NCBI GenBank assembly: GCA_947630215.1
Contig: CANRGX010000027.1
Coordinates: 1-32,549 of the forward strand
DNA from: an uncultured Eisenbergiella sp.
Lineage (GTDB): Bacteria > Bacillota > Clostridia > Lachnospirales > Lachnospiraceae
Direction: 5' to 3'
Length of the DNA: 32,549 bases
In this document: positions 1,699 to 30,927 of the stretch, one piece after another
Layout: each line of letters starts with the position of its first letter
Numbering within the stretch: position 1 is the first letter of the stretch
Program-made: the position numbers and the translations under genes
The notes under the pieces: model-generated
Told to the model about the DNA's origin: nothing
Databases searched by the model: none
The model's input: the letters and a program-made list of their open reading frames with translations, nothing else

Positions 1699-2742
1699 TT
1701 ATTTCTGGGCCTTCGCCTCTTTGATTTTCTCGGTCAGCATCGGGACGATCTTGTTTAAGTCGCCTACCACGCCATAGTCCGCCACATCGAAAATGGGGGC
1801 CGTCTCGTCCTTGTTGATGGCGATGATAATGTCGGATTCCTCCATGCCCGCCAGATGCTGAATGGCGCCGGAAATGCCGACGGCAAAGTAGACGTGGGGC
1901 CGCACGGTCTTACCGGTCTGGCCCACCTGCAGCGCCTTGGGCTTCCAGCCCGCGTCCACCACCGCACGGGAGCAGCTCACGGTGCCGCCCACCGCGTCCG
2001 CCAGATCCTCCAGCAGCTTGAAGTTCTCGGGGCTTCCCACGCCGCGGCCGCCGGATACCAGAATCTTGGCGTCCATAATGTCCTCGATATCGGAAACCGC
2101 TTTTACGATCTCCAGGATTTCCACATATTTATTGTCGGGCGTAAAGCCGGGATTGAACTCCTCGATCACCGCCTGCGCGCCTTCCACGCGGGGCGCTTTC
2201 TGCATGACGCCGGGACGGACCGTCGCCATCTGCGGACGGAAATCCGGGCAGGCAATGGTGGCAATGGTGTTGCCGCCGAAAGCCGGACGGGTCATCAGGA
2301 GCTGGTTGTGCTTCTGCTCCTTGCCGGGAACCGGATTGATGGGGAAATCTCCGATATCCAGCTGCGTGCAGTCCGCAGTCAGACCGGTATGGATTCTCGC
2401 GGATACGCGGGGCCCTAAGTCGCGGCCGATGGCCGTCGCGCCAATCAGCATGATTTCGGGCTTATACTTGCGGATTACCTCGGCCAGGGCGTGGGCGTAA
2501 GGCTCCGTCCTGTATTCCTTCAGTTCGGGATCGTCCACCACGATGATCCTGTCTGCGCCGTACTCCGCCAGCTCGGTGCAAAGTCCCTTTACCTGACTGC
2601 CGATTAAGACCGCCGTCACCTCTGTTCCCAGATCCTTTGCCAGATCCTTTCCTTTGCCCACCAGCTCCAGAGCGATCCCGCTCAGTTCGTTGTCCACCTG
2701 CTGCGCAAAGACAAATACGCCTTTATATTCTTCTAAGTTCAT
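1699..2742 (-). CDS. etfA: Electron transfer flavoprotein alpha subunit (butyryl-CoA dehydrogenase partner)
   Basis: EtfA pairs with EtfB and Bcd in the cytoplasmic complex that reduces crotonyl-CoA to butyryl-CoA. In anaerobes this complex bifurcates electrons from NADH to crotonyl-CoA and ferredoxin. The N-terminal domain carries GADRIIVVDDP and IGATAIGRDLGPRVSARI. The C-terminal FAD domain carries SGGRGVGSPENF, VGQTGKTVRPHVYFAVGISGAIQH and a terminal AINKDETAPIFDVADYGVVGD segment, all ETF-alpha signatures. I chose the ATG at 2740-2742 (347 residues, MNLEEYKG), which has a GGTGA-like site upstream. A GTG four codons earlier lacks a ribosome binding site, and close butyrate-producer homologues begin MNL. 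It is the last gene of the thl-crt-hbd-bcd-etfB-etfA operon, followed by a terminator. Confidence 0.96.
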   Translation of the reverse strand: MNLEEYKGVFVFAQQVDNELSGIALELVGKGKDLAKDLGTEVTAVLIGSQVKGLCTELAEYGADRIIVVDDPELKEYRTEPYAHALAEVIRKYKPEIMLIGATAIGRDLGPRVSARIHTGLTADCTQLDIGDFPINPVPGKEQKHNQLLMTRPAFGGNTIATIACPDFRPQMATVRPGVMQKAPRVEGAQAVIEEFNPGFTPDNKYVEILEIVKAVSDIEDIMDAKILVSGGRGVGSPENFKLLEDLADAVGGTVSCSRAVVDAGWKPKALQVGQTGKTVRPHVYFAVGISGAIQHLAGMEESDIIIAINKDETAPIFDVADYGVVGDLNKIVPMLTEKIKEAKAQK

Positions 2743-2771
2743 CTCATTCACCACGCTTTTCTTTTTATTTG

Positions 2772-3554
2772 TTAAATCACATGTTTGGTCAGCAGCTTAT
2801 CCATGATATAATCCACGGATTCCGCGGGATCCAGGACAACCTTCTCGCCCGCGCCCTTGCGCACCTTATCGGAGGCCTTGGCGATCTGGGTCGGGGAGCC
2901 TTTCAGCCCCAGGTTGGAATCCAGCGTATCCACCAGATTCGCCCTTCCCCATACGGTAATTTCGGCGTCGTAAGCGTCGAAAATGCCGCCGGGCGTCATA
3001 TAGCGGGGCTCGTTTAATTCTGCCAGCGCCGTGATCAGGCAGGGCATTTTCGCCTTGAGCACATGGTATCTGTCGTCATACTGGCGCTCCACGATGACGG
3101 AGTCCCCGTCGATCTTGATGTTCTGCGCATAGCTGATAACCGGTATGTTCAGATGTTCGGAAAGCTGCGGCCCAACCTGCGCGGTATCGCCGTCGATGGC
3201 CTGCCGTCCCGTGATGATCAGATCGTATTCCAGATTGCGGATGGCGCCCGCCAGCGTCTGGCTGGTAGCCCAGGTGTCCGCGCCGCCCAGCACCCTGTCC
3301 GTCACCAGGATTCCCTTGTCCGCGCCCATGGCCATCGCCTCGCGCAGCACTTCTTCCGCCTTGGGAAGTCCCATGGTGATGACGGTCACTTCCGCACCGT
3401 ACTGATCCTTTAATCTCAATGCGGCTTCCAGTCCCGCCTTGTCGTCCGGGTTCATGATTGCCAGCATCGCGCTTCTGTCCAGCGTACCGTCGGGATTGAA
3501 TTTCACGCCGCCCTTGGTATCGGGAACCTGTTTAATACAAACAACGATTTTCAT
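2772..3554 (-). CDS. etfB: Electron transfer flavoprotein beta subunit
   Basis: This 260-residue protein begins MKIVVCIKQVPDT, the canonical ETF-beta opening. It contains MGADKGILVTDRVLGGADTWATSQTLA at about 97-123 and LIITGRQAIDGDTAQVGPQLSEHL at about 131-154, which match the ETF signature region. EtfB binds the flavin that receives NADH electrons in bifurcating Bcd-Etf complexes; the length fits that group. It sits between bcd and etfA with short gaps, matching the subunit order of clostridial butyrate operons. Bifurcation is inferred from family and context and is not proved by the sequence alone. Confidence 0.96.
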   Translation of the reverse strand: MKIVVCIKQVPDTKGGVKFNPDGTLDRSAMLAIMNPDDKAGLEAALRLKDQYGAEVTVITMGLPKAEEVLREAMAMGADKGILVTDRVLGGADTWATSQTLAGAIRNLEYDLIITGRQAIDGDTAQVGPQLSEHLNIPVISYAQNIKIDGDSVIVERQYDDRYHVLKAKMPCLITALAELNEPRYMTPGGIFDAYDAEITVWGRANLVDTLDSNLGLKGSPTQIAKASDKVRKGAGEKVVLDPAESVDYIMDKLLTKHVI

Positions 3555-3605
3555 TGTATGAATCTCTCCTCACTTTCGTTTTGCAAGATATAGGAACCGC
3601 TTTGC

Positions 3606-4757
3606 TTATTTCAGCAGGGCGCTGGAAATAACCATTCTCTGCACTTCGCTGGTACCTTCGTAAATCTCGGTGATCTTCGCGTCGCGCATCATACGCTCCA
3701 CTTCATATTCCCTGGTGTAACCGTAACCGCCGTGCAGCTGAACCGCCTTGGTGGTGACTTCCATTGCCACTTCCGCCGCATACAGCTTTGCCATAGCCGC
3801 TTCCACGGAATAGGATTTCTGTGTGGCCTTGGCCACAGCCGCCTTGTAGACCAGAAGCTGCGCCGCCTGTACCTTGGTGGCCATATCCGCCAGCTGGAAC
3901 TGGGTATTCTGGAACGCCGCAATGGCCCTTCCAAACTGCTTTCTTTCCTTTACATAGGCGATGGTGGATTCCAGCGCGCCCTCCGCGATGCCCAGCGCCT
4001 GGGAAGCGATCCCGATACGGCCGCCGTCCAGCGTGTGCATGGCGATGTTGAAGCCCTTGCCCTGCTGCCCCAGCAGATTCTCCTTCGGGATCCTGCAGTC
4101 CTGGAAGATCAGCTCATAGGTGGAAGAACCGCGGATACCCATTTTCTTTTCCTTCGTGCCGAAGGTAAAGCCGGGCGTTCCCTTTTCCACGATAAAGGCG
4201 GAAATTTCCTTCTGCATCCTGCCGCGCTTCTCCACCATACCGGTCACAGCGAAAATCACATAGACGTCCGCTTCCTTCCCGTTGGTGATAAAGCACTTGG
4301 AACCGTTTAAGACCCACTCGTCCCCGTCCAGAACCGCCTTGGTCTGCTGTCCCTGGGCATCGGTGCCGGCGCCGGGCTCCGTCAGACCGAAAGCGCCCAG
4401 CTTCTCGCCCTTGGCCAGCGGAACCAGATACTTCTGCTTCTGTTCTTCCGTGCCGAAGGTCATAATCGGGTCACAGCACAGGGAGGTGTGGGCGGAAACG
4501 ATAACGCCGGTGGTGCCGCATACCTTGGAGAGCTCCTCTACGCACATCGTATAGGTCAGCGGGTCACAGCCCTGTCCGCCGTACTCCTTGGGCACCGGAA
4601 TCCCCATAAATCCCGCCTTGACCATTTTGTCTACGGTAACTCTGGGAAATTCCTCCGTCTCATCCACTTCCTGGGCCAGAGGTTTTACTTCTTTTTCGGC
4701 AAACTCTTTAAAGAGCTGTCTTGCCATTTCATGTTTCTTATCCAACACAAAATCCAT
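3606..4757 (-). CDS. bcd: Butyryl-CoA dehydrogenase (short-chain acyl-CoA dehydrogenase)
   Basis: This 383-residue acyl-CoA dehydrogenase has the expected family length. FAD and substrate motifs include [38 protein letters not shown] and [23 protein letters not shown]. The C-terminal [11 protein letters not shown] places a glutamate at residue 367, the position of the catalytic base in short-chain enzymes such as that of Megasphaera elsdenii. It reduces crotonyl-CoA to butyryl-CoA with the EtfAB encoded immediately downstream. The operon context (hbd upstream, etfB downstream) makes butyryl-CoA a far better assignment than branched-chain or long-chain substrates. Confidence 0.96.
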
Positions 4758-4786
4758 GTCTCTCTATCCTCCAAAAATTTTCTCGC

Positions 4787-5626
4787 TTATTTTGCGTAGT
4801 CATAAAACCCGATACCGGTCTTTTTCCCCAGCTTGCCGGCGCGCACCATCTTGCGCAGCAAAGGATGCGGACGGTACTTGGGATCGCCGGTCTCGGCCTG
4901 CAGCACCTCCATGATCGCCAGCACAATATCCAGGCCCACCAGATCGCCCAGTGCCAGAGGCCCCATGGGGTGAGACGCACCCAGCTTCATGGCGGTGTCA
5001 ATATCCTCTGCGGAAGCGATGCCGTCCGCGTAAATGCCGATGGCTTCGTTGATCATCGGAATCAGAATCTTGTTGACCACAAACCCGGGCGCTTCCTTTA
5101 CTTCCACAGGGGTCTTCCCGATCTGGACGGCAATGTCCTTGATCCGGGCCACCAGCTCGGCGGGCGTGTTCTCTCCGGCGATCACCTCCACCAGCTTCAT
5201 GCGGTCCGCCGGGTTAAAGAAGTGCATCCCGATCAGCGGCCTGTCCAGTCCCGCGCCCATTTCCGTCAGGGACAGGGAGGAGGTGTTGGAAGCAAAAATG
5301 CAATCCGGCTTTACAATCGACATCAGCTCCTTAAACGTGGTCTTCTTAATTTCCATTTTTTCCGGCGCGACCTCAATCACCAGATCGCAGTCCGTGCAGA
5401 TGTCCTTCAGACCGCAGACAATCTTGCCCATGATCTCCTCGCCCTTTTCGGCGGTAATCTTTTCCTTGCCCACCAGGAAGTTGATATTCTTCTGGATCCT
5501 GGCCTTGCCGCCCTCGGCAAATTCCATCGAAATATCGCAAAGGCAGACTTCGTAACCGTCCGTCATTGCAAAAGCCTGTGCAATTCCGGCACCCATGGTG
5601 CCCGCACCGATAACGCCAACCTTCAT
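4787..5626 (-). CDS. hbd: 3-hydroxybutyryl-CoA dehydrogenase
   Basis: This 279-residue enzyme reduces acetoacetyl-CoA to 3-hydroxybutyryl-CoA using NAD(P)H. The N-terminus has the dinucleotide-binding motif [30 protein letters not shown] and [17 protein letters not shown] follow, the latter containing the catalytic His of the HFFNP motif. The C-terminal dimer domain has [37 protein letters not shown] and the terminal [11 protein letters not shown]. The size and motifs are those of clostridial Hbd. The gene is separated from bcd by 29 bases and from crt by 45 bases, consistent with a single transcript. Confidence 0.97.
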
Positions 5627-5671
5627 TGTGTTGTCCTCCTGTCCTGATAATTGATTTCTGTTTTTATAACA

Positions 5672-6457
5672 TCAGCGGTTCTGAAAGGGTTCTTTGACCT
5701 TTTCCTTGTTTTTGTCCAGGAAAAACGCCATGCCGTACTTCTGATCCTGCGTTTCAAAGCAGTCTCCGAACAGCTTTTCCTCCAGCGCCACAGCCTGATC
5801 CATATCCAGATCCAGCCCCTCGTTGATGGCCTTCTTACAGTTGCGCACGGCAATGGGCGCATTCTTGGCGATCCCGGCCGCCATCTTTTCCGCCGCCGCC
5901 ATCAGCTCCTCCTGCGGATAGACCGCGTTTACCAGCCCGATGCGCAGCGCTTCGTCGGCCTTGATGTTGCGCGCGGTATAGATCATCTGCTTGGCCATTC
6001 CGGCGCCCACCAGACGCGCCAGCCGCTGCGTGCCGCCGAACCCGGGCGTAATGCCCAGTCCCACTTCGGGCTGTCCGAACACCGCGTTGTCGGAGCAGAT
6101 ACGGATGTCGCAGCTCATGGAAATCTCACAGCCGCCGCCCAGGGCAAACCCGTTTACTGCGGCAATGACGGGAATCGGGAACGTCTCCAGCTTGCGGAAC
6201 ACGTCGTTGCCCTTTTTCCCAAACGCCTGGCCCTCTGCCTTGGTCAGCGTGCTCATCTCGCCGATATCCGCGCCGGCCACAAAGGATTTCTGCCCCGCGC
6301 CGGTCAGAATCAGGCACCTCACCACGGAAAGATCCACGTTGTCCAGCGTCTGATCCAGTTCTTCCAGCACCGTGGAATTGAGCGCGTTGAGCGCTTTCTC
6401 CCGGTTGATGGTGAGAATGGCGTAGCTGCCCTTTTGCTCGTATAAAATATACTCCAT
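5672..6457 (-). CDS. crt: 3-hydroxybutyryl-CoA dehydratase (crotonase)
   Basis: This enoyl-CoA hydratase dehydrates 3-hydroxybutyryl-CoA to crotonyl-CoA. The oxyanion-hole and active-site segments are visible as SFVAGADIGEMS, NGFALGGGCEISMSCD and FGQPEVGLGITPGFGGTQRL. The two catalytic Glu positions of the crotonase family fall in GGGCE and PEVGLG. I chose the ATG at 6455-6457 (261 residues, MEYILYEQ), the normal length for clostridial Crt, with GGAG six bases upstream. Two in-frame upstream ATGs would add up to ten residues without a better ribosome binding site. It follows thl after an unusually long 160-base gap containing two strong hairpins. Confidence 0.96.
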   Translation of the reverse strand: MEYILYEQKGSYAILTINREKALNALNSTVLEELDQTLDNVDLSVVRCLILTGAGQKSFVAGADIGEMSTLTKAEGQAFGKKGNDVFRKLETFPIPVIAAVNGFALGGGCEISMSCDIRICSDNAVFGQPEVGLGITPGFGGTQRLARLVGAGMAKQMIYTARNIKADEALRIGLVNAVYPQEELMAAAEKMAAGIAKNAPIAVRNCKKAINEGLDLDMDQAVALEEKLFGDCFETQDQKYGMAFFLDKNKEKVKEPFQNR

Positions 6458-6490
6458 CTTTCTCTCCATTCCGAAGCGTTTCAACAACGG

Positions 6491-6567
6491 GACGGCGCAG
6501 GCGCCGCAAACGCGTCTCCTGCGCCCGTCATCGGGGCTGTCCGGGACGCTCCGACCCAGACAGCCCC
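6491..6567 (-). other. Two tandem strong hairpins in the thl-crt intercistronic gap
   Basis: Hairpin A pairs GACGGCGCAGG (6491-6501) with CCTGCGCCCGTC (6518-6529), an 11-bp stem with one bulged C. Hairpin B pairs GGGGCTGTC (6533-6541) with GACAGCCCC (6559-6567), a perfect 9-bp stem. Neither is followed by a U run on the minus strand, so they are unlikely to be terminators. They may protect or process the thl and crt messages separately; that role is inference. Confidence 0.6.
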
Positions 6568-6616
6568 GCGAACGAAGTCCGTTTTTTTAAAGGAATCTGC
6601 CAATTTCCGATTCGGT

Positions 6617-7798
6617 TCAGTCTCTCTCTACGATGGTCGCGCAGCCCATGCCGCCGCCGATGCAGAGGGTCGCCAGACCCTTTTTCGCATCCTTTGCTTC
6701 CATCTCATGCAGCAAGGTCACCAGAATCCGGCAGCCGGAAGCGCCCACCGGATGTCCCAGCGCGATGGCGCCGCCGTTGGGGTTGAGCTGTTCGTCCGTA
6801 AAGCCCAGCTCTCTCTGTACCGCCACGGACTGTGCCGCAAACGCTTCGTTGGCCTCGATGATATCGAAGTCTTCAATCTTCATGCCCGTCTTGGCCATGA
6901 CCTTCTTCGTGGCCGCCACCGGGCCGATGCCCATGATGGCCGGATCCACGCCTGCCAGCGCGCCCGCTACCCAGGTTGCCATGGGCTTGACGCCCAGCTC
7001 TTTTGCCTTTTCCTCGCTCATCACCACAATGGCGGCCGCGCCGTCATTGATACCGGAAGCGTTCCCCGCGGTCACCAGGCCGTCCTTCTTGAAAGCGGGA
7101 CGCAGCCTCGCGATGCCCTCGGCCGTGGTGCCGGGACGGGGTCCCTCGTCCTTATTGAAAATCACCGTGGTCTTTTTCTGCTTCACTTCCACCGGCACGA
7201 TCTCCTTGTCGAAAGCGCCGGATTCCTGTGCCGCTACCGCCTTCTGCTGGGAGTTGGCCGCGAACTTGTCCAGTTCCTCGCGGGTGATGCCCCATTTCTC
7301 GCAGATATTCTCCGCCGTGATACCCATATGGTAATCGTTGAACGCATCCCAAAGGGCGTCGTGCACCATGGTATCCACCAGCTTGCCATCGTTCATGCGG
7401 TAGCCGTAACGGCCCTGCATCACAGCGTAGGGAGCCATGGACATATTTTCCATACCGCCGGCCACCACGATGTCCGCGTCGCCTACGGCGATCATCTGCG
7501 CGGCCAGATTCACACAGTTCAGACCGGAACCGCACACCACATTGATCGTAACCGCGGGCGTCTCAATCGGCAGCCCCGCCTTGATGGATGCCTGGCGCGC
7601 CACATTCTGTCCCTGTCCGGCCTGGATGACACATCCCATATATACCTGGTCAACCTGATCGGCAGGCACGCCCGCCCTGTTCAGCGCTTCCTTGATAACG
7701 ATGGAACCCAGCTCCACGGCCGGGACCGTGCTCAGCGTACCGCCCATCACTCCGATGGCCGTGCGGCATGCGCCTGCCAGTACAATTTTCTTTGCCAT
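6617..7798 (-). CDS. thlA: Acetyl-CoA acetyltransferase (thiolase)
   Basis: This 393-residue biosynthetic thiolase condenses two acetyl-CoA into acetoacetyl-CoA, the first step of butyrate formation. The nucleophilic Cys89 lies in [44 protein letters not shown] and [17 protein letters not shown] carry the family signatures, and the C-terminal [15 protein letters not shown] supplies the second active-site cysteine. It is the first gene of the butyryl-CoA operon. ACGGAGGT lies about seven bases before the ATG, and an excellent sigma-A promoter is roughly 70 bases upstream. The length and biosynthetic context argue against a degradative thiolase. Confidence 0.97.
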
Positions 7799-7871
7799 TT
7801 TTTTACCTCCGTAAGGATATCGAATTGCAGTTCCGAGTTTGTTAATTTTTTATCATTCACTCGTTGAATTT

Positions 7872-7900
7872 ATTATAGCACACTCCTACAGACAGGGCAA
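7872..7900 (-). promoter_or_regulatory. Sigma-A promoter of the thl-crt-hbd-bcd-etfBA operon
   Basis: The -35 is TTGCCC (7895-7900), the spacer is 17 bases and the -10 is TATAAT (7872-7877), extended by TGC directly upstream. Transcription should begin near 7865, giving a leader of about 65 bases. The promoter lies just after the stop codon of the M23 peptidase gene. No terminator is visible between the two, so some read-through from that gene is possible. Confidence 0.87.
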
Positions 7901-7909
7901 GGAAAACTT

Positions 7910-8995
7910 TCACTTCTTTGCCGCTTCTGCCGCGGGATCCCGGATCTGCAGAACCCGCTTCCATTCCTTCGTTCCTTCCACCTTTGCCACGCCGCTGCGG
8001 TGCCTGCGCAAAAACTGGCTCAGCTGATAACAGTCGATCCAGATCTCGTTGTCGGACTCCTTCTGGGATTCGTCAAAAATCAGTTCCAGCCCCCAGTGCA
8101 AATGCGTGGTCTTGATGTTATTCACGTTTTCCTCTGTGCTGTAGCCCGTATGGCCCATATAGCCGATGACCTGTCCGGCGGTCACCACGCTGCCCTCCTC
8201 CAGATCCGACTGGTAGGGATAGTTCTGGCGCAGATGGGCGTAATAATAGTAGCGCTTTCTGTCAAAGCTGCGGATGCCGATGCGCCAGCCGCCGTACTGG
8301 TTCCAGCCCAGCACCTCCACATAACCGGACTCAATAGCGATGATCGGCGTCCCCACCAGACCCATCATATCGTGCCCCAGATGGGGACGGCTGTATCCGT
8401 AGCTGCGCGCCGCGCCGAAATCATCGTAATCCGAATAGTCGAATCCCTTGGCGATGGGCGAATAGGCCTTCAGCCCGTAAACCTGCTGCCATGTTACAGT
8501 TCCATCCTCTCCTTCTATCTGCGCTTCATAGGGCCCCACCATACCGGAGAGCACCGCTTCGTAGGCTTCCTTATAATAAGGATAATATTTCAGTTCCCTG
8601 CCCGCTTCTTCGATGACATCCGTGGCCGTGCGCTGCCCGTCTGCTTCTTTAAGGGCCTTTTTTGCCATATCCTTCATGGTCTGCATCGCCTGTCTGGAAA
8701 ACTCCCCGCCCCACCTGGCTGCAGTATAGGCCAGGAGGGAAATCCAGTTTAGTTCTGTGCCCGCTTCATGCGCCAGGATATCCTGCTCACAGGCATATTC
8801 CAGCGCCTGACTGGACACGGTAAAATCCACCCATTTGATGTAGTCCTTTTTCCCTTCCTTTGTTTCCGTCTGCCCGATCTCAATGTTGTCGGAAAAGACG
8901 GGAGCCTTCTGTCTGTCCGCATATCGGCCGCACAGAAGCAGAAAAAGAAGAAACAGTTCCACAAGGATCGCTGCCTGACAGATTCTCGAACGCAT
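7910..8995 (-). CDS. Membrane-anchored or secreted M23 family metallopeptidase
   Basis: From the ATG at 8993-8995 the protein has 361 residues. It begins with MRSRICQ and a hydrophobic stretch (AAILVELFLLFLLLCG) that acts as signal peptide or anchor. The C-terminal half is an M23 (lysostaphin/LytM) domain. GHDMMG carries the first zinc His and Asp, SGYVEVLGWNQYGGWRIGIRS is the barrel core, and THLHWGLEL carries the HxH motif. Such enzymes cut peptidoglycan cross-bridges or have spore-wall roles. The open frame extends upstream to 9148, but that start lies inside the hpf terminator (9131-9165), so the downstream start with a real signal sequence is preferred. A ribosome binding site is weak here (GGGCGGA). 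The central 160 residues are helical and not assigned to a family. Confidence 0.85.
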   Translation of the reverse strand: MRSRICQAAILVELFLLFLLLCGRYADRQKAPVFSDNIEIGQTETKEGKKDYIKWVDFTVSSQALEYACEQDILAHEAGTELNWISLLAYTAARWGGEFSRQAMQTMKDMAKKALKEADGQRTATDVIEEAGRELKYYPYYKEAYEAVLSGMVGPYEAQIEGEDGTVTWQQVYGLKAYSPIAKGFDYSDYDDFGAARSYGYSRPHLGHDMMGLVGTPIIAIESGYVEVLGWNQYGGWRIGIRSFDRKRYYYYAHLRQNYPYQSDLEEGSVVTAGQVIGYMGHTGYSTEENVNNIKTTHLHWGLELIFDESQKESDNEIWIDCYQLSQFLRRHRSGVAKVEGTKEWKRVLQIRDPAAEAAKK

Positions 8996-9130
8996 GGGGT
9001 GTCCGCCCGTTTCCGCGCGCCAACGGCACCGCCGTTTTGAAAAAAGCACGCCGCATTTGTTGATCTCATTGTATGAAAGGGGCCGCCGTTCCAGAACTTC
9101 CGGCAGCGTATCCGGCATGGCCTCTTTTGC

Positions 9131-9165
9131 AAAAAAGCCGGGAAGCAATCCGCTCGCTTCCCGGC
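9131..9165 (-). terminator. Intrinsic terminator after hpf
   Basis: A perfect 10-bp stem (GCCGGGAAGC at 9137-9146 with GCTTCCCGGC at 9156-9165) has a 9-base loop and is followed on the minus strand by six U (9131-9136). It lies about 40 bases after the hpf stop and separates hpf from the M23 peptidase gene. Confidence 0.92.
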
Positions 9166-22263: not shown

Positions 22264-23175
22264 TCACCGGGAAATTACCAGTTGGATCGCGTCCTCCACC
22301 GTGGCGATCTGCTCCGGTTCAATCCGGGAAACCACCTTGCGGCGGGGCACATATTCCCTGCGCACCTCCACCACCGAACGCTTGTCGGGAAACGCGTCTC
22401 CCGGCACCTGGCTGAGCCGCCGGTAAAAGGACGCCATTTCGTCGCCCATGCCCGCCAGCCGGTTCAAAAGCTCCGAAAACTCCGTCAGCATGGGATCCTG
22501 TTTCTTGTAAGGATAGAGGATGTGATGGTCGATCTCTCCCCATCCCTCCTCAAACAGCGTCCGCACCTGCACCTCCAGATAGACGCCCCGGTATTTCAGA
22601 ATATAGTGTACGGAACGATAATACTTCTGGTCGTAAATGTGGTCGCTGGAAATCCAGTCGGCGTAAATGTCCCCGAAATCGCCGGGCCTCATATGCACCT
22701 TGGGCGCTTCCGCCATATAGCAGTCCCGCTCGTCGGAAAAATCCTTCAGCGCGTCGTTGACATACCATTCCTGCCGGTTTTCAAAATGGGCGGTGAGATA
22801 TTTGTGAAAGATCACCCAGTTTTCCCGGTACAGCAAAATCCCGCGAAAGCCGATGAGATCCGTCACAAACCGCATATAATTCTCCCGGTTCAGATCCCGG
22901 TACTTCAAATAATTTTCAATTCTGCGGCGAATGATTTTCTCCACCAGGTGTTCCGGCGTCTTTACCCGGGTGCGGTAGGAATGCAGTCCCGCCTCCTCCT
23001 CCCGGTTCTCAATATATTCCCGCACGAACAGATCGCGGATCCGGTACAGCTGCTCCAGGCGTCCCTCGTAATCCTGCGCGATGGCGCACAGTTCCTCCCA
23101 GGAAATGGCCGCCTCCTCAAACTGGGCCTGGGTGATCGCGTACTTTTTCAGAAATTCCGCACAATCCATCTGCAT
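22264..23175 (-). CDS. RelA/SpoT-domain (p)ppGpp synthetase (small alarmone synthetase-like)
   Basis: This 303-residue protein has a synthetase domain at about 55-222 and no HD hydrolase domain, TGS domain or ACT domain. Motifs are YRTRVKTPEHLVEKIIRR (68-84), DLIGFRG (106-112) with the catalytic Asp, YYRSVHYIL (185-193) with the GTP-stacking Tyr, and EVQVRT (201-206) with the second catalytic Glu. It should transfer pyrophosphate from ATP to GTP or GDP. It is longer than typical small alarmone synthetases, with an N-terminal helix region and an unassigned C-terminal tail of about 80 residues. Its AAAGGAG ribosome binding site overlaps the stop codon region of the GTPase-nuclease gene 13 bases away, implying coupled translation. 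Confidence 0.88.
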   Translation of the reverse strand: MQMDCAEFLKKYAITQAQFEEAAISWEELCAIAQDYEGRLEQLYRIRDLFVREYIENREEEAGLHSYRTRVKTPEHLVEKIIRRRIENYLKYRDLNRENYMRFVTDLIGFRGILLYRENWVIFHKYLTAHFENRQEWYVNDALKDFSDERDCYMAEAPKVHMRPGDFGDIYADWISSDHIYDQKYYRSVHYILKYRGVYLEVQVRTLFEEGWGEIDHHILYPYKKQDPMLTEFSELLNRLAGMGDEMASFYRRLSQVPGDAFPDKRSVVEVRREYVPRRKVVSRIEPEQIATVEDAIQLVISR

Positions 23176-23188
23176 ACATAAACTCCTT

Positions 23189-25978
23189 TTACGGGCCGTC
23201 GGGCAGTCTGTCCCTGCCGGGATCCCTTCTGCCCAGCCGCACCTGTTCCATCCACTCCGCCATATCTCCGGAAAGCTGATCGAACAGATAATTCTTTTTG
23301 TCTTCCCTTTTGTTTTCCCACGTCTCCCGGATCTGCGCCCGCGTCTTCTCCACTTCGTCCCAAAGCTCCCGCGCGGACATCCGGCGCGCCCCTTCCCCGT
23401 AGATGATCACCTGTTCCAGCGCGTCGGAAGTGGCCACCGTGATGGAAGCGTCCCTTCCGATCCGGTGAACGGTTTTTTCAATATACTGATCCGCCGTCTC
23501 CGCTTCCTTGGTAAACACCACGTACAGATTCTGGTACTTGCTCACGCTGCCCTGTCCGCCCTCCACCCGGTAGGCGTCAAACACCAGGATCACCGTACAG
23601 CCGTGGTAGCCCTGATAGTTGGAAAGCACGTCCGCCAGACGGCTCCGGGCGCCCTCGAGGGTCGTCTCCGACAAAAGCCGGAGCTCCTCCCAGGCAAAAA
23701 TCACGTTATAGCCGTCCACCAGAAGATAGGTGTCCTCCCGGGCAGCCGGCCGCGGCCGGCTTTTGTGTTCCGTCGGCTCCAAGAGCCGTTTTCTTCTGTA
23801 TCCGGTTCGTTCTCCGCCCCCGCTGCGGTAGGTGCGCAGAAAAATTTCTTCCAGTTCCTCCTGGGAAACCGAAGCGGTCTTTTCTTCCTTCCGGAGCGGC
23901 CGCGCTATCGCGTTCTCTCCCGGAAAGCCCCCGGACGGCAGACCCCCGTCCGCCCTGTTTTCCGCCTTTAACACGCTCTCCAAGTGCATATACTGTTCCA
24001 CCTGATCCCATGATACCACAAAACCGGCTCCGTGTGCACAAAAAACGGAAGACGCGGGATTTTCCGTATCCTGCTCGGGATCGTAGCCGATGGCGGCCAC
24101 CACCTGCCGGGCGTCGTGGCAGGGCTCATACCCCTTTAGGGCGCAGCTCAGCCTGCCCCGTCCGTGGCTGTAGGCGGTCACTTCCTTCTGATAGCCCGTC
24201 ATCTGCGCCGCCGGCGCGCTGCCGGTAAAAACGGCCAGTTCTCCCTCTAAAAACGGGCCGTCAAAGCTGCCGTGCATATTCTGAATGTCGTGCATGGCCC
24301 GCCCGGTATTTTCGGAGGGCACCACAAGCCGGAAGGAAAAGACCGGCTCCAGCAGTACGTTTTGGGCTTTCATCAGCCCCTGCCGCAGGGCCCGGTAGGT
24401 GGCCTGCCGGAAATCCCCGCCTTCCGTATGCTTCAAATGGGCCCGGCCGGCCGCCAGCGTGATCTTCATGTCCGTGATCTCGCCGCCCACCAGCACGCCC
24501 CGGTGTTTCTTTTCCTCCAGGTGGGTCAGCACCAGCCGCTGCCAGTTCCGATCCAGCACATCCTCGCTGACGGCGGTGGCAAACTGCAGGCCGCTGCCCG
24601 GTTCTCCCTCCTCCAGTAAAAGATGCACCTCCGCGTAGTGGCGCAGCGGCTCGAAATGCCCCACGCCCTCGGAGATCCCTGCGATGGTTTCCTTATAGAC
24701 GATGCTTCCCTCCGAAAATTCCACCAAGATGCCGAATCGATCCCGGATCAGGCTCTGCAGAATCTCCATCTGCACATCCCCCATGACCTGGGCGTGGATC
24801 TCCTGCGTCTCCTCCTGCCAGAAAACGGCCAGCTCCGGTTCCTCCTCCTGCAGCTGCTTCAGCTTCAGAAACACTCCGTGGGGGTCCTGCTTCACATCGT
24901 CCTCCAAAATCCGGATCCGATAGGTCAGAACCGGCTCTAGGACCGGCAGCACCGTTTCCGTCTCTCCTCCCAACCCCTGTCCCGCAAAGGTTTTCGTCAG
25001 ACCCGTCACCGCACAGATCCCACCGGCCGCCACCTCCGGAAGCGTCCCATAGGACGCGCCGGAATACTGCCGGATCTGATCTGCCTTTTCCTCCCAGACC
25101 TCCTCTGCCGCCATGCCTTCCCGCCGGTTGGTCAGCGGCATCTTCACCCGCAGGCTGCCGCCCGTGATTTTCATGTGGGTCAGACGGCTGCCCTGGGCGT
25201 CCCGGGTAATCTTAAACACCCGCGCGCCGAAGGCGGCCGGATAGGAGGGCGTGCGCATATAGCGCGAAAGTCCTTCCAGCAGTTCCTTCACGCCAAACCC
25301 TTTCAGCGCGGATCCGAAATAGCAGGGAAACAGCTTCCGGTCCGCGATCAGCCCTGCGATCTCCTCCTCCGTTATCTGTCCCCCTTCCAGATACCGTTCC
25401 AGAAGCGCGTCGTCGCAGACCGCCACTTCCTCCCAGAAATCCGCCGGACGGCGCATGGACGCGCCATCCTCCGTTTCGGGTACGCAAAAGGCGACGCACC
25501 GGCCATCCAGCCGGCGCTTCAATTCTTCTAACAGCGTCCGGGCCTGCGTTCCCGGCTGATCCATTTTGTTGACAAACACAAAGACCGGAATCCGATAGTG
25601 GGCCAGCAGCCTCCAGAGCGTTTCCACATGCCCCTGCACGCCGTCCGCGCCGCCGATCAGCAGCACGGCATAATCCAACACCTGCAGCGTGCGCTCCATC
25701 TCCGCCGAAAAATCCGTATGGCCCGGCGTGTCCAGAAGCGTCACCTGACGTCCCTCTAGGGAAAAGACGGCCTGTTTGGAAAAAATGGTTATGCCCCTGG
25801 CCTTTTCCATGGCGTCCGTGTCCAGAAAGGCATCCCGGTGATCCACGCGGCCCAGCCTGCGGATGCTGCCAACAGTATACAGGATGTGCTCCGCCAGCGT
25901 GGTCTTCCCGGCGTCCACATGGGCCAGCAGGCCCACGCAGACGGCCTCCTTCTCCTTTTGGGATCGTATTTCGTTCAT
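23189..25978 (-). CDS. EF-G/TetM-like ribosomal GTPase fused to a Rae1 (YacP)-like NYN endoribonuclease
   Basis: This 929-residue protein has two parts. Residues 1 to about 625 are a translational GTPase of the TetM/EF-G type: G1 AHVDAGKTT (19-27), G2 GITI (62-65), G3 DTPGH (83-87), G4 NKMD (137-140) and G5 SAL (223-225). Domain III/IV segments follow, GDVQMEILQSLIRDRFG (400-416) and HTEGGDFRQATYRA (517-530), and the GRGRLSCALKGY ending (606-617). After a linker (about 640-745), residues 749-915 match full-length Rae1/YacP. They show LLVDGYN (Asp755), VFDAYR (Asp801), VFTKEAETADQYIEK (821-835), VATSDALEQ (848-856) and the basic helix plus C-terminal MAEWMEQVRLG. Bacillus Rae1 cuts mRNA in the ribosomal A site; TetM-type factors bind the same site. 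The Ser-Pro-Val-Ser drug-site loop of TetM is not conserved here. It heads a six-gene operon and has GGAG four bases before the ATG. Confidence 0.92.
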   Translation of the reverse strand: MNEIRSQKEKEAVCVGLLAHVDAGKTTLAEHILYTVGSIRRLGRVDHRDAFLDTDAMEKARGITIFSKQAVFSLEGRQVTLLDTPGHTDFSAEMERTLQVLDYAVLLIGGADGVQGHVETLWRLLAHYRIPVFVFVNKMDQPGTQARTLLEELKRRLDGRCVAFCVPETEDGASMRRPADFWEEVAVCDDALLERYLEGGQITEEEIAGLIADRKLFPCYFGSALKGFGVKELLEGLSRYMRTPSYPAAFGARVFKITRDAQGSRLTHMKITGGSLRVKMPLTNRREGMAAEEVWEEKADQIRQYSGASYGTLPEVAAGGICAVTGLTKTFAGQGLGGETETVLPVLEPVLTYRIRILEDDVKQDPHGVFLKLKQLQEEEPELAVFWQEETQEIHAQVMGDVQMEILQSLIRDRFGILVEFSEGSIVYKETIAGISEGVGHFEPLRHYAEVHLLLEEGEPGSGLQFATAVSEDVLDRNWQRLVLTHLEEKKHRGVLVGGEITDMKITLAAGRAHLKHTEGGDFRQATYRALRQGLMKAQNVLLEPVFSFRLVVPSENTGRAMHDIQNMHGSFDGPFLEGELAVFTGSAPAAQMTGYQKEVTAYSHGRGRLSCALKGYEPCHDARQVVAAIGYDPEQDTENPASSVFCAHGAGFVVSWDQVEQYMHLESVLKAENRADGGLPSGGFPGENAIARPLRKEEKTASVSQEELEEIFLRTYRSGGGERTGYRRKRLLEPTEHKSRPRPAAREDTYLLVDGYNVIFAWEELRLLSETTLEGARSRLADVLSNYQGYHGCTVILVFDAYRVEGGQGSVSKYQNLYVVFTKEAETADQYIEKTVHRIGRDASITVATSDALEQVIIYGEGARRMSARELWDEVEKTRAQIRETWENKREDKKNYLFDQLSGDMAEWMEQVRLGRRDPGRDRLPDGP

Positions 25979-26035: not shown

Positions 26036-26064
26036 ATTATAACGTGCCTTCCCCTTTTAGGCAA
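26036..26064 (-). promoter_or_regulatory. Sigma-A promoter of the GTPase-nuclease/alarmone operon
   Basis: TTGCCT (26059-26064), a 17-base spacer and a perfect TATAAT (26036-26041). The predicted start at about 26029 leaves only about 50 bases of leader before the GTPase ATG, most of it GC-rich. No other promoter is visible within the operon. Confidence 0.82.
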
Positions 26065-29093: not shown

Positions 29094-29122
29094 TTTAAAC
29101 TATTAAAGCAAACTGTAATCGC

Positions 29123-29151
29123 ATGATAATACATTCCTTACGTTTTGTCAA
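29123..29151 (-). promoter_or_regulatory. Sigma-A promoter of the aldolase-metY operon
   Basis: A perfect TTGACA (29146-29151), a 17-base spacer and TATCAT (29123-29128). The leader is about 75 bases and contains the tandem repeats. Confidence 0.83.
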
Positions 29152-29259
29152 GGGCCGTCGCCGGATCCCGCCCGATTTCATACAAAAAAATCCGTTCAGA
29201 AAACAGTGGCGTTTTTTCTTTGCTTCTGTCATAATAAAAGAAAAAAAGGAGACAGCAGT

Positions 29260-30843
29260 ATGTATAAGCAGATCTTTGTGAATCAGTGCGGTTATCTGCC
29301 GCGCATGGCCAAAAAGGCAACCTTTCGTTCCGACGGCCCGACAGGCTTTTCTGTGGTCTCCACGGACGGACGGCGCGTTTACCGGGCGACAGCCACAGAG
29401 CGCGTAAAAACCGTCTCCGCAGGGGAAACGGTCTATGTCGGGGACTTTTCCGCCGTCACAGAACCGGGACGGTATTACCTGCTGGCCGACAACGGCGGAG
29501 AATCCGATACCTTCGAGATCGCGGAGGGAATTTACGGGGAGGTGTTTGAGAAAGCGTTTTCTTTCTTTTATCTGCAGCGCTGCGGCTGCGCGCTTTCTCC
29601 GTCCCGGGCGGGCGCCTTTGCCCATAAGGCCTGTCATACCGGGCTGGCGGTCGTCTACGGCACCGCAGAAAAACGGGAAGTGTCCGGCGGCTGGCACGAC
29701 GCGGGCGACTACGGGCGCTATATCGTCCCCGCCGCCATGACGGTGGCCCAGCTTCTGTACGCCTGCGAGGACAATCCGGCCCTTGCCTCTCTTTACCGGG
29801 CAGCGCACCCGCAGTCCTGTCTGGAGGAGATCCGCTATGAACTGGAATGGATGCTCAAGCTGCAGCGCCGGGACGGCCAGGTCTATCACAAGGTCACCTG
29901 CCGCAGCTTCTGCAATTTTGTCCTGCCCGAAGAAGAACAGGACGAACTGGTGCTCAGTCCGGTTTCCGTCACCGCGACCGCGGATTTCGCGGCGGCCGCC
30001 GCCATGGCGGTACGCTTCTACCGCGATGGGAACCCGGCCTTTGCCGACAGACTGGCCGACGCTGCCAAAAAGGCATACGCTGCCCTTTCTTCCATGGATC
30101 TGCCGGGCGGCTTTCACAATCCGGCCGATATCCGCACCGGCGAATACGGCGACGACTGCGACGCGGACGAGCGCTACTGGGCGGCGGCAGAGCTCTACAA
30201 GGCCTTTGGCGATCCCCAATACCGGGCGGACTTTGAACGGCTGGCGAATCAGAAAATCTATCACGGATACGGCTGGGCCGATGTGGGCAGCTTTGGCAAC
30301 CGCGCCTACCTGACCGCGGATTTTCCCACGGATCCGGCTCTGGCGGATCGGATCCGCGCTTCCATGATCGAAACCGCCCAAAAGCGGATGGAAGCGTCGG
30401 CCGCAGACGGTTACGGCACCGCCCTGTTTCCCGACGAATATGTGTGGGGCAGCAACATGACCGTGGCAAACAACGGCCTGCACCTGTTCGACGCCTACCG
30501 CTTTACCGGCGATACGGCCTATCTGGACTGCGCCGCCCACCAGCTGCATTATCTTCTGGGCCGCAATCCCATGGGCCTTTGCTATCTCACCGGATGCGGC
30601 ACGGACAGCATCAAGCATCCCCACCACAGGCCCTCCGTTTTTCTGGGCAAGGCCATGCCCGGTATGCTCTCCGGGGGCCCCTGCGGCAGACGGCTGGATC
30701 CGGCGGCCAAGGGACTGCTTCCGGAAGATTTTCCGCCTGCCAAGGCGATTGTGGATATGTCCGGCAGCTACTCCACCAACGAGGTGGCAATCTATTGGAA
30801 CTCCGCTTTTCTCCTGCTGCTGGCCAGCGTGACGGCGGTGTAA
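29260..30843 (+). CDS. Intracellular glycoside hydrolase family 9 protein
   Basis: This 527-residue protein has an N-terminal Ig-like cellulase domain (about 1-90: FVNQCGYLP and KKATF, ending near FEIAEGIYG) and a GH9 (alpha/alpha)6 barrel. GGWHDAGDYGRY carries the catalytic Asp147/Asp150, HPHHR (453-457) is a substrate-binding motif, and STNEVAIYWN carries the acid Glu508. I chose the ATG at 29260 with AAAGGAG eight bases upstream; the frame stays open to 29206. There is no signal peptide, so it should act in the cytoplasm on imported beta-linked oligosaccharides, perhaps as an exo-acting glucosidase or glucosaminidase. The gene is divergent from the aldolase operon; only a weak promoter (CATAAT at 29230) is visible. 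No terminator was seen after it. Confidence 0.9.
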   Translation: MYKQIFVNQCGYLPRMAKKATFRSDGPTGFSVVSTDGRRVYRATATERVKTVSAGETVYVGDFSAVTEPGRYYLLADNGGESDTFEIAEGIYGEVFEKAFSFFYLQRCGCALSPSRAGAFAHKACHTGLAVVYGTAEKREVSGGWHDAGDYGRYIVPAAMTVAQLLYACEDNPALASLYRAAHPQSCLEEIRYELEWMLKLQRRDGQVYHKVTCRSFCNFVLPEEEQDELVLSPVSVTATADFAAAAAMAVRFYRDGNPAFADRLADAAKKAYAALSSMDLPGGFHNPADIRTGEYGDDCDADERYWAAAELYKAFGDPQYRADFERLANQKIYHGYGWADVGSFGNRAYLTADFPTDPALADRIRASMIETAQKRMEASAADGYGTALFPDEYVWGSNMTVANNGLHLFDAYRFTGDTAYLDCAAHQLHYLLGRNPMGLCYLTGCGTDSIKHPHHRPSVFLGKAMPGMLSGGPCGRRLDPAAKGLLPEDFPPAKAIVDMSGSYSTNEVAIYWNSAFLLLLASVTAV

Positions 30844-30927
30844 ATACAACTTTGACATTTATAATTGTTATATTTTGTCGAAAAATGTATTTTATCAGTT
30901 ATACCTTATAAAATTTATTTCGTTCCC

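Follow-up and report, generated by a model that had tools for sequence, protein, structure and literature searches.

A Tet/EF-G-type GTPase joined to a Rae1/YacP-like nuclease in Lachnospiraceae: a candidate ribosome-associated mRNA endonuclease

The fusion gene and its parts

We analysed a 32,549-nucleotide stretch of DNA from an uncultured Eisenbergiella sp. (GenBank assembly GCA_947630215.1, contig CANRGX010000027.1; hereafter, the window). Its reverse strand carries, at 23189..25978, a single intact open reading frame (ORF) of 929 amino acids (aa) with an ATG start, encoding a GTPase of the Tet/EF-G type, a linker, and a Rae1/YacP-like NYN nuclease domain. A first-pass annotation of this DNA had proposed this architecture, and it is borne out by Pfam domains as well as by sequence matches in the PDB to TetO (8e-74), TetM (8e-73), and the YacP entry 5mq9 (2e-26)—presumably the B. 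subtilis protein. The gene and its parts, with the evidence for each, are:

23189..25978, − strand: fusion gene, Tet/EF-G-type GTPase, linker, and Rae1/YacP NYN nuclease, 929 aa (ORF, Pfam domains, relatives, structure model)
25256..25948, − strand: G domain, aa 11–241, GTP_EFTU, with G motifs and His87 conserved (Pfam E 1.7e-49 and alignments)
24983..25228, − strand: domain II, aa 251–332, EF-G_D2 (Pfam 19.6 bits, under the cut-off of 27; the fold match spans domain II)
24713..24934, − strand: domain III, aa 349–422, EFG_III (Pfam)
24362..24706, − strand: domain IV, aa 425–539, EFG_IV, facing the A site in TetM and EF-G (Pfam 6e-16)
24110..24358, − strand: domain V, aa 541–623, EFG_C, containing Cys620 (Pfam 7e-16; alignment)
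23981..24109, − strand: C-terminal extension of the GTPase, aa 624–666, with Cys647 and His665 conserved (alignment)
23732..23980, − strand: linker, aa 667–749, with a predicted local distance difference test score (pLDDT) mostly below 50 (structure model)
23828..23863, − strand: conserved helix within the linker, aa 706–717 (helix in the model and motif counts)
23231..23731, − strand: Rae1/YacP NYN domain, aa 750–916, with D755, D801, D830, and D852 intact (Pfam, PDB alignment, row alignment)

The GTPase part had been described as showing all five G motifs and domains III–V and as ending near residue 625; domains III–V are indeed present, but a conserved extension had been overlooked, and the part spans residues ~10–665 with it included. 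Its structure model superposes on TetM across 618 residues (a fold match), and the G-motif residues and His87 are invariant or nearly so in our two alignments (A1 and A2). At the other end of the chain, Pfam NYN_YacP covers residues 752–914 (8e-54; 182.5 bits against a cut-off of 24.6), and the alignment shows no substitution of D755, N758, D801, D830, E834, or D852 in any of its 122 fused and 24 standalone rows, the fused rows being made up of 43 wider loci and 79 named contigs (at least two of these rows, L039 and L182, come from the same contig). Thus, both the relationship to Rae1 and the completeness of the NYN domain, acidic residues included, stand as first described.

The possibility that the NYN part is a separate gene joined by a frameshift had also been raised, and is ruled out by the reading frames of the relatives: both parts share one frame in 43/43 wider fused loci (20 of them preselected on frame length) and in 79 of the 80 named contigs with the highest NYN similarity. 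Among these 79, L188, L193, and L209 are truncated where their contigs end, and the GTPase of L213 is only partly in frame; the 80th contig, L253, starts at a contig end. Judged by frame length only, fused-length frames occur in more than 250 genomes among the matches listed. Three genomes—G119 (C41:19732-22382), G655 (C121), and G474 (C2)—have the GTPase and the NYN domain in different frames, as broken or misassembled copies.

In a quick tree of 89 GTPase proteins, supported by the Shimodaira–Hasegawa-like approximate likelihood ratio test (SH-aLRT) only, fused and unfused members group together (SH-aLRT 99) and lie apart from TetM, TetO, TetQ, OtrA, TetB(P), other Tet-like rows, and EF-G. 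By this comparison, the clade is distinct from the tetracycline-protection proteins included. The window protein likewise scores 417.3 bits with NCBIfam NF012153 (tet_protect; cut-off 775) and 285.1 bits with the EF-G family TIGR00484 (cut-off 659.4). The tip loops of domain IV, GHFEPLxHYAE and GRxHxKHTxGGDFR, are peculiar to the clade and unlike those of TetM and EF-G, the second one standing where TetM has its YSPVS-type loop III. Domain IV is the best-conserved domain of this subfamily: fused and unfused members share on average 59% identity in it versus 45% in the G domain (domain IV being higher in 1264 of 1290 pairs), and the corresponding means for 91 pairs of Tet proteins are 44% and 46%. 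We read this conservation as pointing to a specific A-site function. Another Tet-like GTPase group (L135, L148, L150, and L151) has a third kind of domain IV tip, His-rich with a DF end, which resembles neither that of TetM nor that of the fusion.

The C-terminal extension, a gap in the Tet proteins aligned, occurs in unfused relatives as well. Cys647 is kept in 40/43 fused and 29/30 unfused rows, His665 in 40/43 and 28/30, respectively, and Cys620 in 43/43 and 30/30 (also in 4/9 other Tet-like rows). One idea is that these three residues, kept in most rows, are a candidate zinc site.

Distribution and origin of the fusion

In the following, family denotes Lachnospiraceae, order Lachnospirales, class Clostridia, and phylum Bacillota. 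The closest named relatives of the window protein are from Eisenbergiella metagenome-assembled genomes; L182 and L039, both from the same-genus genome G266, are 928-aa proteins with equal identities. A survey across Lachnospiraceae, suggested in the first-pass annotation, revealed a widespread fusion. NYN_YacP is present in 270/298 family genomes, and the 150 family places listed comprise 136 in frames of at least 864 aa, ten in standalone-size frames, and four that are ambiguous. Across the class, GTPase matches of at least 640 bits lie in frames of at least 840 aa in 98/293 genomes among the matches listed (including a few frames with stops read through); five further genomes carry shorter or split GTPase pieces (G474, G500, G581, G596, and G655), and 19 genomes, again among the matches listed, carry an unfused GTPase above 600 bits. 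In the phylum sample, 16/249 genomes are fused by frame length, 11 of those outside the class, and two are unfused. These genome tallies rest on frame lengths, both parts having been read through only in the 43 loci and the named set. The fusion is the sole YacP in the window's own genome; two order genomes, G396 (whose fused copy is cut by a contig end) and G412, hold a standalone YacP in addition to it. Rae1 usually takes this fused form in the family, where the gene is not an accessory resistance determinant.

A mobile origin was considered and set aside: viral contigs gave no match to the fusion with the patterns used, and of 23 plasmid records matching the NYN part, the 15 listed include two with a fused copy, both large and non-mobilizable.

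The 43 fused GTPase rows form one group nested among unfused rows, except that an unfused copy from Ligilactobacillus salivarius lies inside it, a position suggesting that the NYN domain was lost once afterwards. The NYN tree unites the 20 standalone copies of the order in a single group (91/91, below the mark of 95 that the tool itself sets), and the long-branch fusions L114 and L115 are unstable and oddly placed. As far as these trees go, they show one main origin of the fusion, and the odd placement of L114 and L115 may reflect a second fusion event. The L. salivarius copy (L157) lies on a plasmid near rpsN (S14) and is annotated as TetM/TetW family; 33 Ligilactobacillus plasmid records match at 1e-50.

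Standalone yacP usually stands in the order cysS-mrnC-rlmB-yacP-sigH: of 20 stretches around it, 15 contain rlmB and cysS, 14 sigH, and 13 a gene with an RNase III domain, which we take to be mrnC. The window's own genome has ispF, a hexapeptide transferase gene (presumably cysE), cysS, mrnC, and rlmB, followed by a different ORF and a Barstar gene, and no yacP. In 12/12 further fusion genomes, yacP was likewise absent within 1.5 kb of rlmB; ten of these have cysS and mrnC before rlmB, and in seven sigH is the next match, within 300 bp. That yacP is gone from beside rlmB in 13/13 fusion genomes examined argues that Rae1 left its usual place and persists as a domain. At the level of gene order, this shows replacement of standalone yacP by the fusion.

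Possible function and alternatives

Rae1 is an A-site endonuclease according to three papers, in one of which a suppressor change, R166P, is interpreted as a loss of function (PMC6613710, PMC12320835, PMC10100781). The window protein keeps the C-terminal tail with the equivalent residue, R914, assigned by counting from D7 = D755 (the PDB alignment itself ends at residue 138). This arginine is found in 24/24 standalone and 79/79 named fused proteins, but in only 8/43 wider fused loci, 18 of the 43 having a gap at this position; on a quick full-length tree, it undergoes six changes, at least three of them forced by well-supported branches. The sequence following the NYN core varies widely among tail-less fusions (L111, L112, L114, and others), from nothing to unrelated. 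Once fused, the nuclease can apparently do without the Rae1 tail, and the GTPase may have taken over ribosome docking from it.

The linker, too, has a conserved element: its helix motif occurs in 41/43 loci and 67/79 named contigs versus 23 of 2150 shuffled linkers (1%), using a pattern written after the alignment had been inspected. With ~60 disordered residues, we estimate that the linker could reach mRNA from almost anywhere on the factor, and timing rather than reach would therefore limit access of the NYN domain.

We give an even chance to the view that the fusion is this lineage's Rae1—that is, a ribosome-associated mRNA endonuclease mounted on a dedicated translational GTPase. The best reading of its activity, as apt to hold as to fail, is an mRNA endonuclease that is driven by GTP and docks on stalled ribosomes, with both docking and cleavage inferred. 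The GTPase would dock in its GTP form on ribosomes with an empty A site (stalled or paused), its conserved domain IV tip would probe the decoding centre in the manner of TetM and EF-G, and the NYN domain would thereby be held at the ribosome by the flexible linker with its helix. In a subsequent hand-over, GTP hydrolysis would withdraw the GTPase, and the tethered nuclease would move in and cleave the mRNA at the A site, so that rescue and decay could follow. Docking that depends on the C-terminal tail in Rae1 would fall partly to the GTPase here, a possible reason for the loss of this tail in many fusions. This order of events, with the GTPase first and the nuclease after GTP hydrolysis, could equally well prove right or wrong. 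A more ambitious version, which we put forward tentatively and consider somewhat less probable than its opposite, is that stalled-ribosome quality control in much of the Clostridia employs a GTP-gated one-chain mRNA endonuclease, in which a purpose-made domain IV tip senses the empty A site and hydrolysis hands this site to Rae1. If true, this would be a translational GTPase with mRNA cleavage as its output, and a family-wide rescue route beside tmRNA.

Indirect support for the GTPase bringing the nuclease to ribosomes comes from the fusion being the only YacP in its genome, from the loss of yacP beside rlmB, from the tail being absent in many fusions yet present in 24/24 standalone copies, and from the split forms being kept or lost together in the family. 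There, an unfused GTPase of the same clade is present in 9 of the 11 genomes with YacP outside a clear fusion (ten standalone and the ambiguous G054) and in 0/20 tested (of 28) YacP-less genomes (p 2.7e-6). No unfused GTPase was found within the stretch around yacP in any of the ten standalone family genomes.

Several points weigh against this reading. Outside the family, standalone YacP occurs without the GTPase in 23/34 order genomes tested (of ~79); the 11/34 that have it (versus 1/15; p 0.075) include six of one genus (g334), and leaving out G368, whose GTPase begins only 21 bases away from the end of its contig, possibly as a truncated fusion, gives 11/34 versus 0/14 (p 0.02). Class-wide, co-occurrence is weak (13/19 versus 76/171, the latter obtained by subtraction from tallies; p 0.055): genomes often have Rae1 but no GTPase, and sometimes the GTPase but no Rae1. 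The latter holds for the unfused GTPase in 6/19 class genomes, and the GTPase must therefore have some job without the nuclease. All of these p-values ignore kinship between genomes and, as genomes are not independent, overstate the association. Rae1 acts in B. subtilis, which is not known to have such a GTPase. Moreover, ribosome binding, GTP dependence, and cleavage are all inferred from sequence, and the structure model leaves the relative placement of the GTPase and NYN halves unfixed (predicted template-modelling score, pTM, 0.56). Lastly, the shared A site had initially been offered as simple support for the GTPase bringing the nuclease to ribosomes. It does not give such support as stated: the A site is where domain IV (in TetM and EF-G) and also Rae1 are located, and the two should exclude each other, so that a hand-over is to be expected, in a sequential or displaced model.

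The alternative that survives best, possible though unlikely, is that the two enzymes share the ribosome but not a reaction, with fusion only tying their expression and location. The GTPase would then work alone, for instance in back-translocation or in removing a stalled factor or a small molecule, and the NYN domain would be an ordinary Rae1. This would suit the class genomes with an unfused GTPase and no YacP (6/19), the NYN-less L. salivarius copy inside the fused clade, and B. subtilis Rae1, which is described as working as a free protein (PMC6613710, PMC12320835, PMC10100781). It fits poorly with the joint presence or absence of the split parts inside the family, the linker helix kept in 41/43 loci, and the fact that many families have retained the fusion.

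In the passages available, Atkinson et al. 2015 (PMC4342817) report that Tet proteins from ten clostridial species carry a YacP-like NYN RNase domain, and consider them a possible variant of resistance. We regard it as improbable that the fusion is such a tetracycline ribosome-protection protein with an added RNase. TetO and TetM are its closest solved relatives by sequence, and some copies are annotated accordingly—as had been anticipated, the Agathobacter rectalis copy bears the label 'TetM/TetW/TetO/TetS family' (that of Monoglobus reads 'translation factor GTPase family protein'). However, the tet_protect score is 417 bits against 775, and the clade is separate from TetM, TetO, TetQ, OtrA, and TetB(P), with different tip loops and C-terminus; the tip alone decides nothing on protection, since a TetM loop III tip triple mutant can be active, as part of one paper indicates (PMC4750697). 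Rather than patchy, the gene is near-universal in the family (YacP in 270/298 genomes; 136/150 places listed of fused length), plasmid-borne fusions are limited to the two large non-mobilizable records among the matches listed, no leader or attenuator was seen, and G471 holds both the fusion and a 98% tet(M).

Similarly improbable is a factor that cuts or matures rRNA or tRNA on ribosomal subunits, a role for this domain that Atkinson et al. 2015 (PMC4342817), in the part available, cite from Anantharaman and Aravind. The intact NYN active site, a GTPase that could give access to the ribosome, and the ribonuclease III-domain gene and 23S methyltransferase gene rlmB next to standalone yacP are in keeping with this role; opposed to it are the departure of the fusion from the rlmB operon and B. 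subtilis Rae1, described in the passages available as cutting translated A-site mRNA (PMC6613710, PMC12320835, PMC10100781). An annotation, frameshift, or assembly artefact, as the out-of-frame copies in G119, G474, and G655 and the partly out-of-frame GTPase of L213 might suggest, has practically no chance of being correct, as it is refuted by the one-frame counts (43/43 loci and 79/80 named contigs) and by the fused-length frames in more than 250 genomes among the matches listed.

Surroundings of the gene and relation to known systems

Two features flank the fusion gene:

26036..26064, − strand: promoter-like TTGCCT-17-TATAAT, ~58 nt ahead of the start codon (pattern scan)
22264..23175, − strand: RelA_SpoT-domain protein, 303 aa, 13 bp downstream of the fusion gene (Pfam)

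Promoter-like sites numbered six within the scanned stretch, versus 1.6 expected; no long attenuator or leader was seen before the fusion gene, and Rfam gave no match. The RelA_SpoT gene is probably co-transcribed with the fusion gene, and would then be a possible small alarmone synthetase sharing a transcript with a ribosome factor. It neighbours 5/122 fused loci, in the Eisenbergiella-like clade only (with L039 and L182 on one contig). In 13/122 fused loci there is a greA-like gene no more than 3 kb away, and no gene neighbourhood of the fusion is conserved class-wide. Elsewhere in the window, 1699-9148 (− strand) holds ordinary genes—those for electron transfer flavoprotein (ETF) alpha, acyl-CoA dehydrogenase, 3-hydroxyacyl-CoA dehydrogenase, and thiolase, which we take to be a butyrate-type set, then an M23 peptidase gene—and 29095-30858 (− strand) a 587-aa ORF with no Pfam or NCBIfam match at the limits used.

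If our favoured reading of a GTPase-borne Rae1 is true, mRNA cutting is linked directly to a translational GTPase in a major gut-bacterial family, and many core genes that carry a tetracycline resistance label need renaming; gut-metagenome resistance surveys that count TetM-like matches could be inflated by this core gene. How Rae1 enters and chooses stalled ribosomes becomes a testable question, for which the fusion, the split pair, and GTPase-free Rae1 offer three natural versions of one function to compare.

The first-pass annotation had known of no experimental description of the architecture. We found no experiment on the fusion in open-licence full texts (a set outside which the key Rae1 papers, Leroy 2017 and Condon 2018, fall), but the architecture itself had been reported computationally (PMC4342817, as seen in part). 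The group of Atkinson et al. 2015 likewise combines a Tet-type GTPase with a YacP-like NYN domain, comes from the clostridia as well, and very likely consists of the same proteins. It is treated there, in the passages available, in a few sentences and as a possible resistance mechanism; new relative to these are the core distribution, the separate clade, the replacement of Rae1, the co-occurrence of the split forms, and the loss of the tail.

Among characterized systems, B. subtilis Rae1/YacP shares with the window protein a homologous NYN domain, the catalytic acids, the R166 equivalent, and the status of sole YacP in the genome; it is, however, a free protein of ~170 aa encoded beside rlmB (yacO), whereas here it makes up the C-terminal part of a GTPase encoded elsewhere in the genome. 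TetM and TetO have the same five-domain layout, but the fusion shares only 29–31% identity with them in domain IV, lacks the YSPVS tip, possesses an extra Cys/His C-terminal extension, and is a core gene of a separate clade. Finally, it differs from EF-G in falling far under the family cut-off (285 versus 659 bits), and the window's own genome encodes, by size, EF-G and EF-Tu in a 729-aa frame beside a 400-aa frame.
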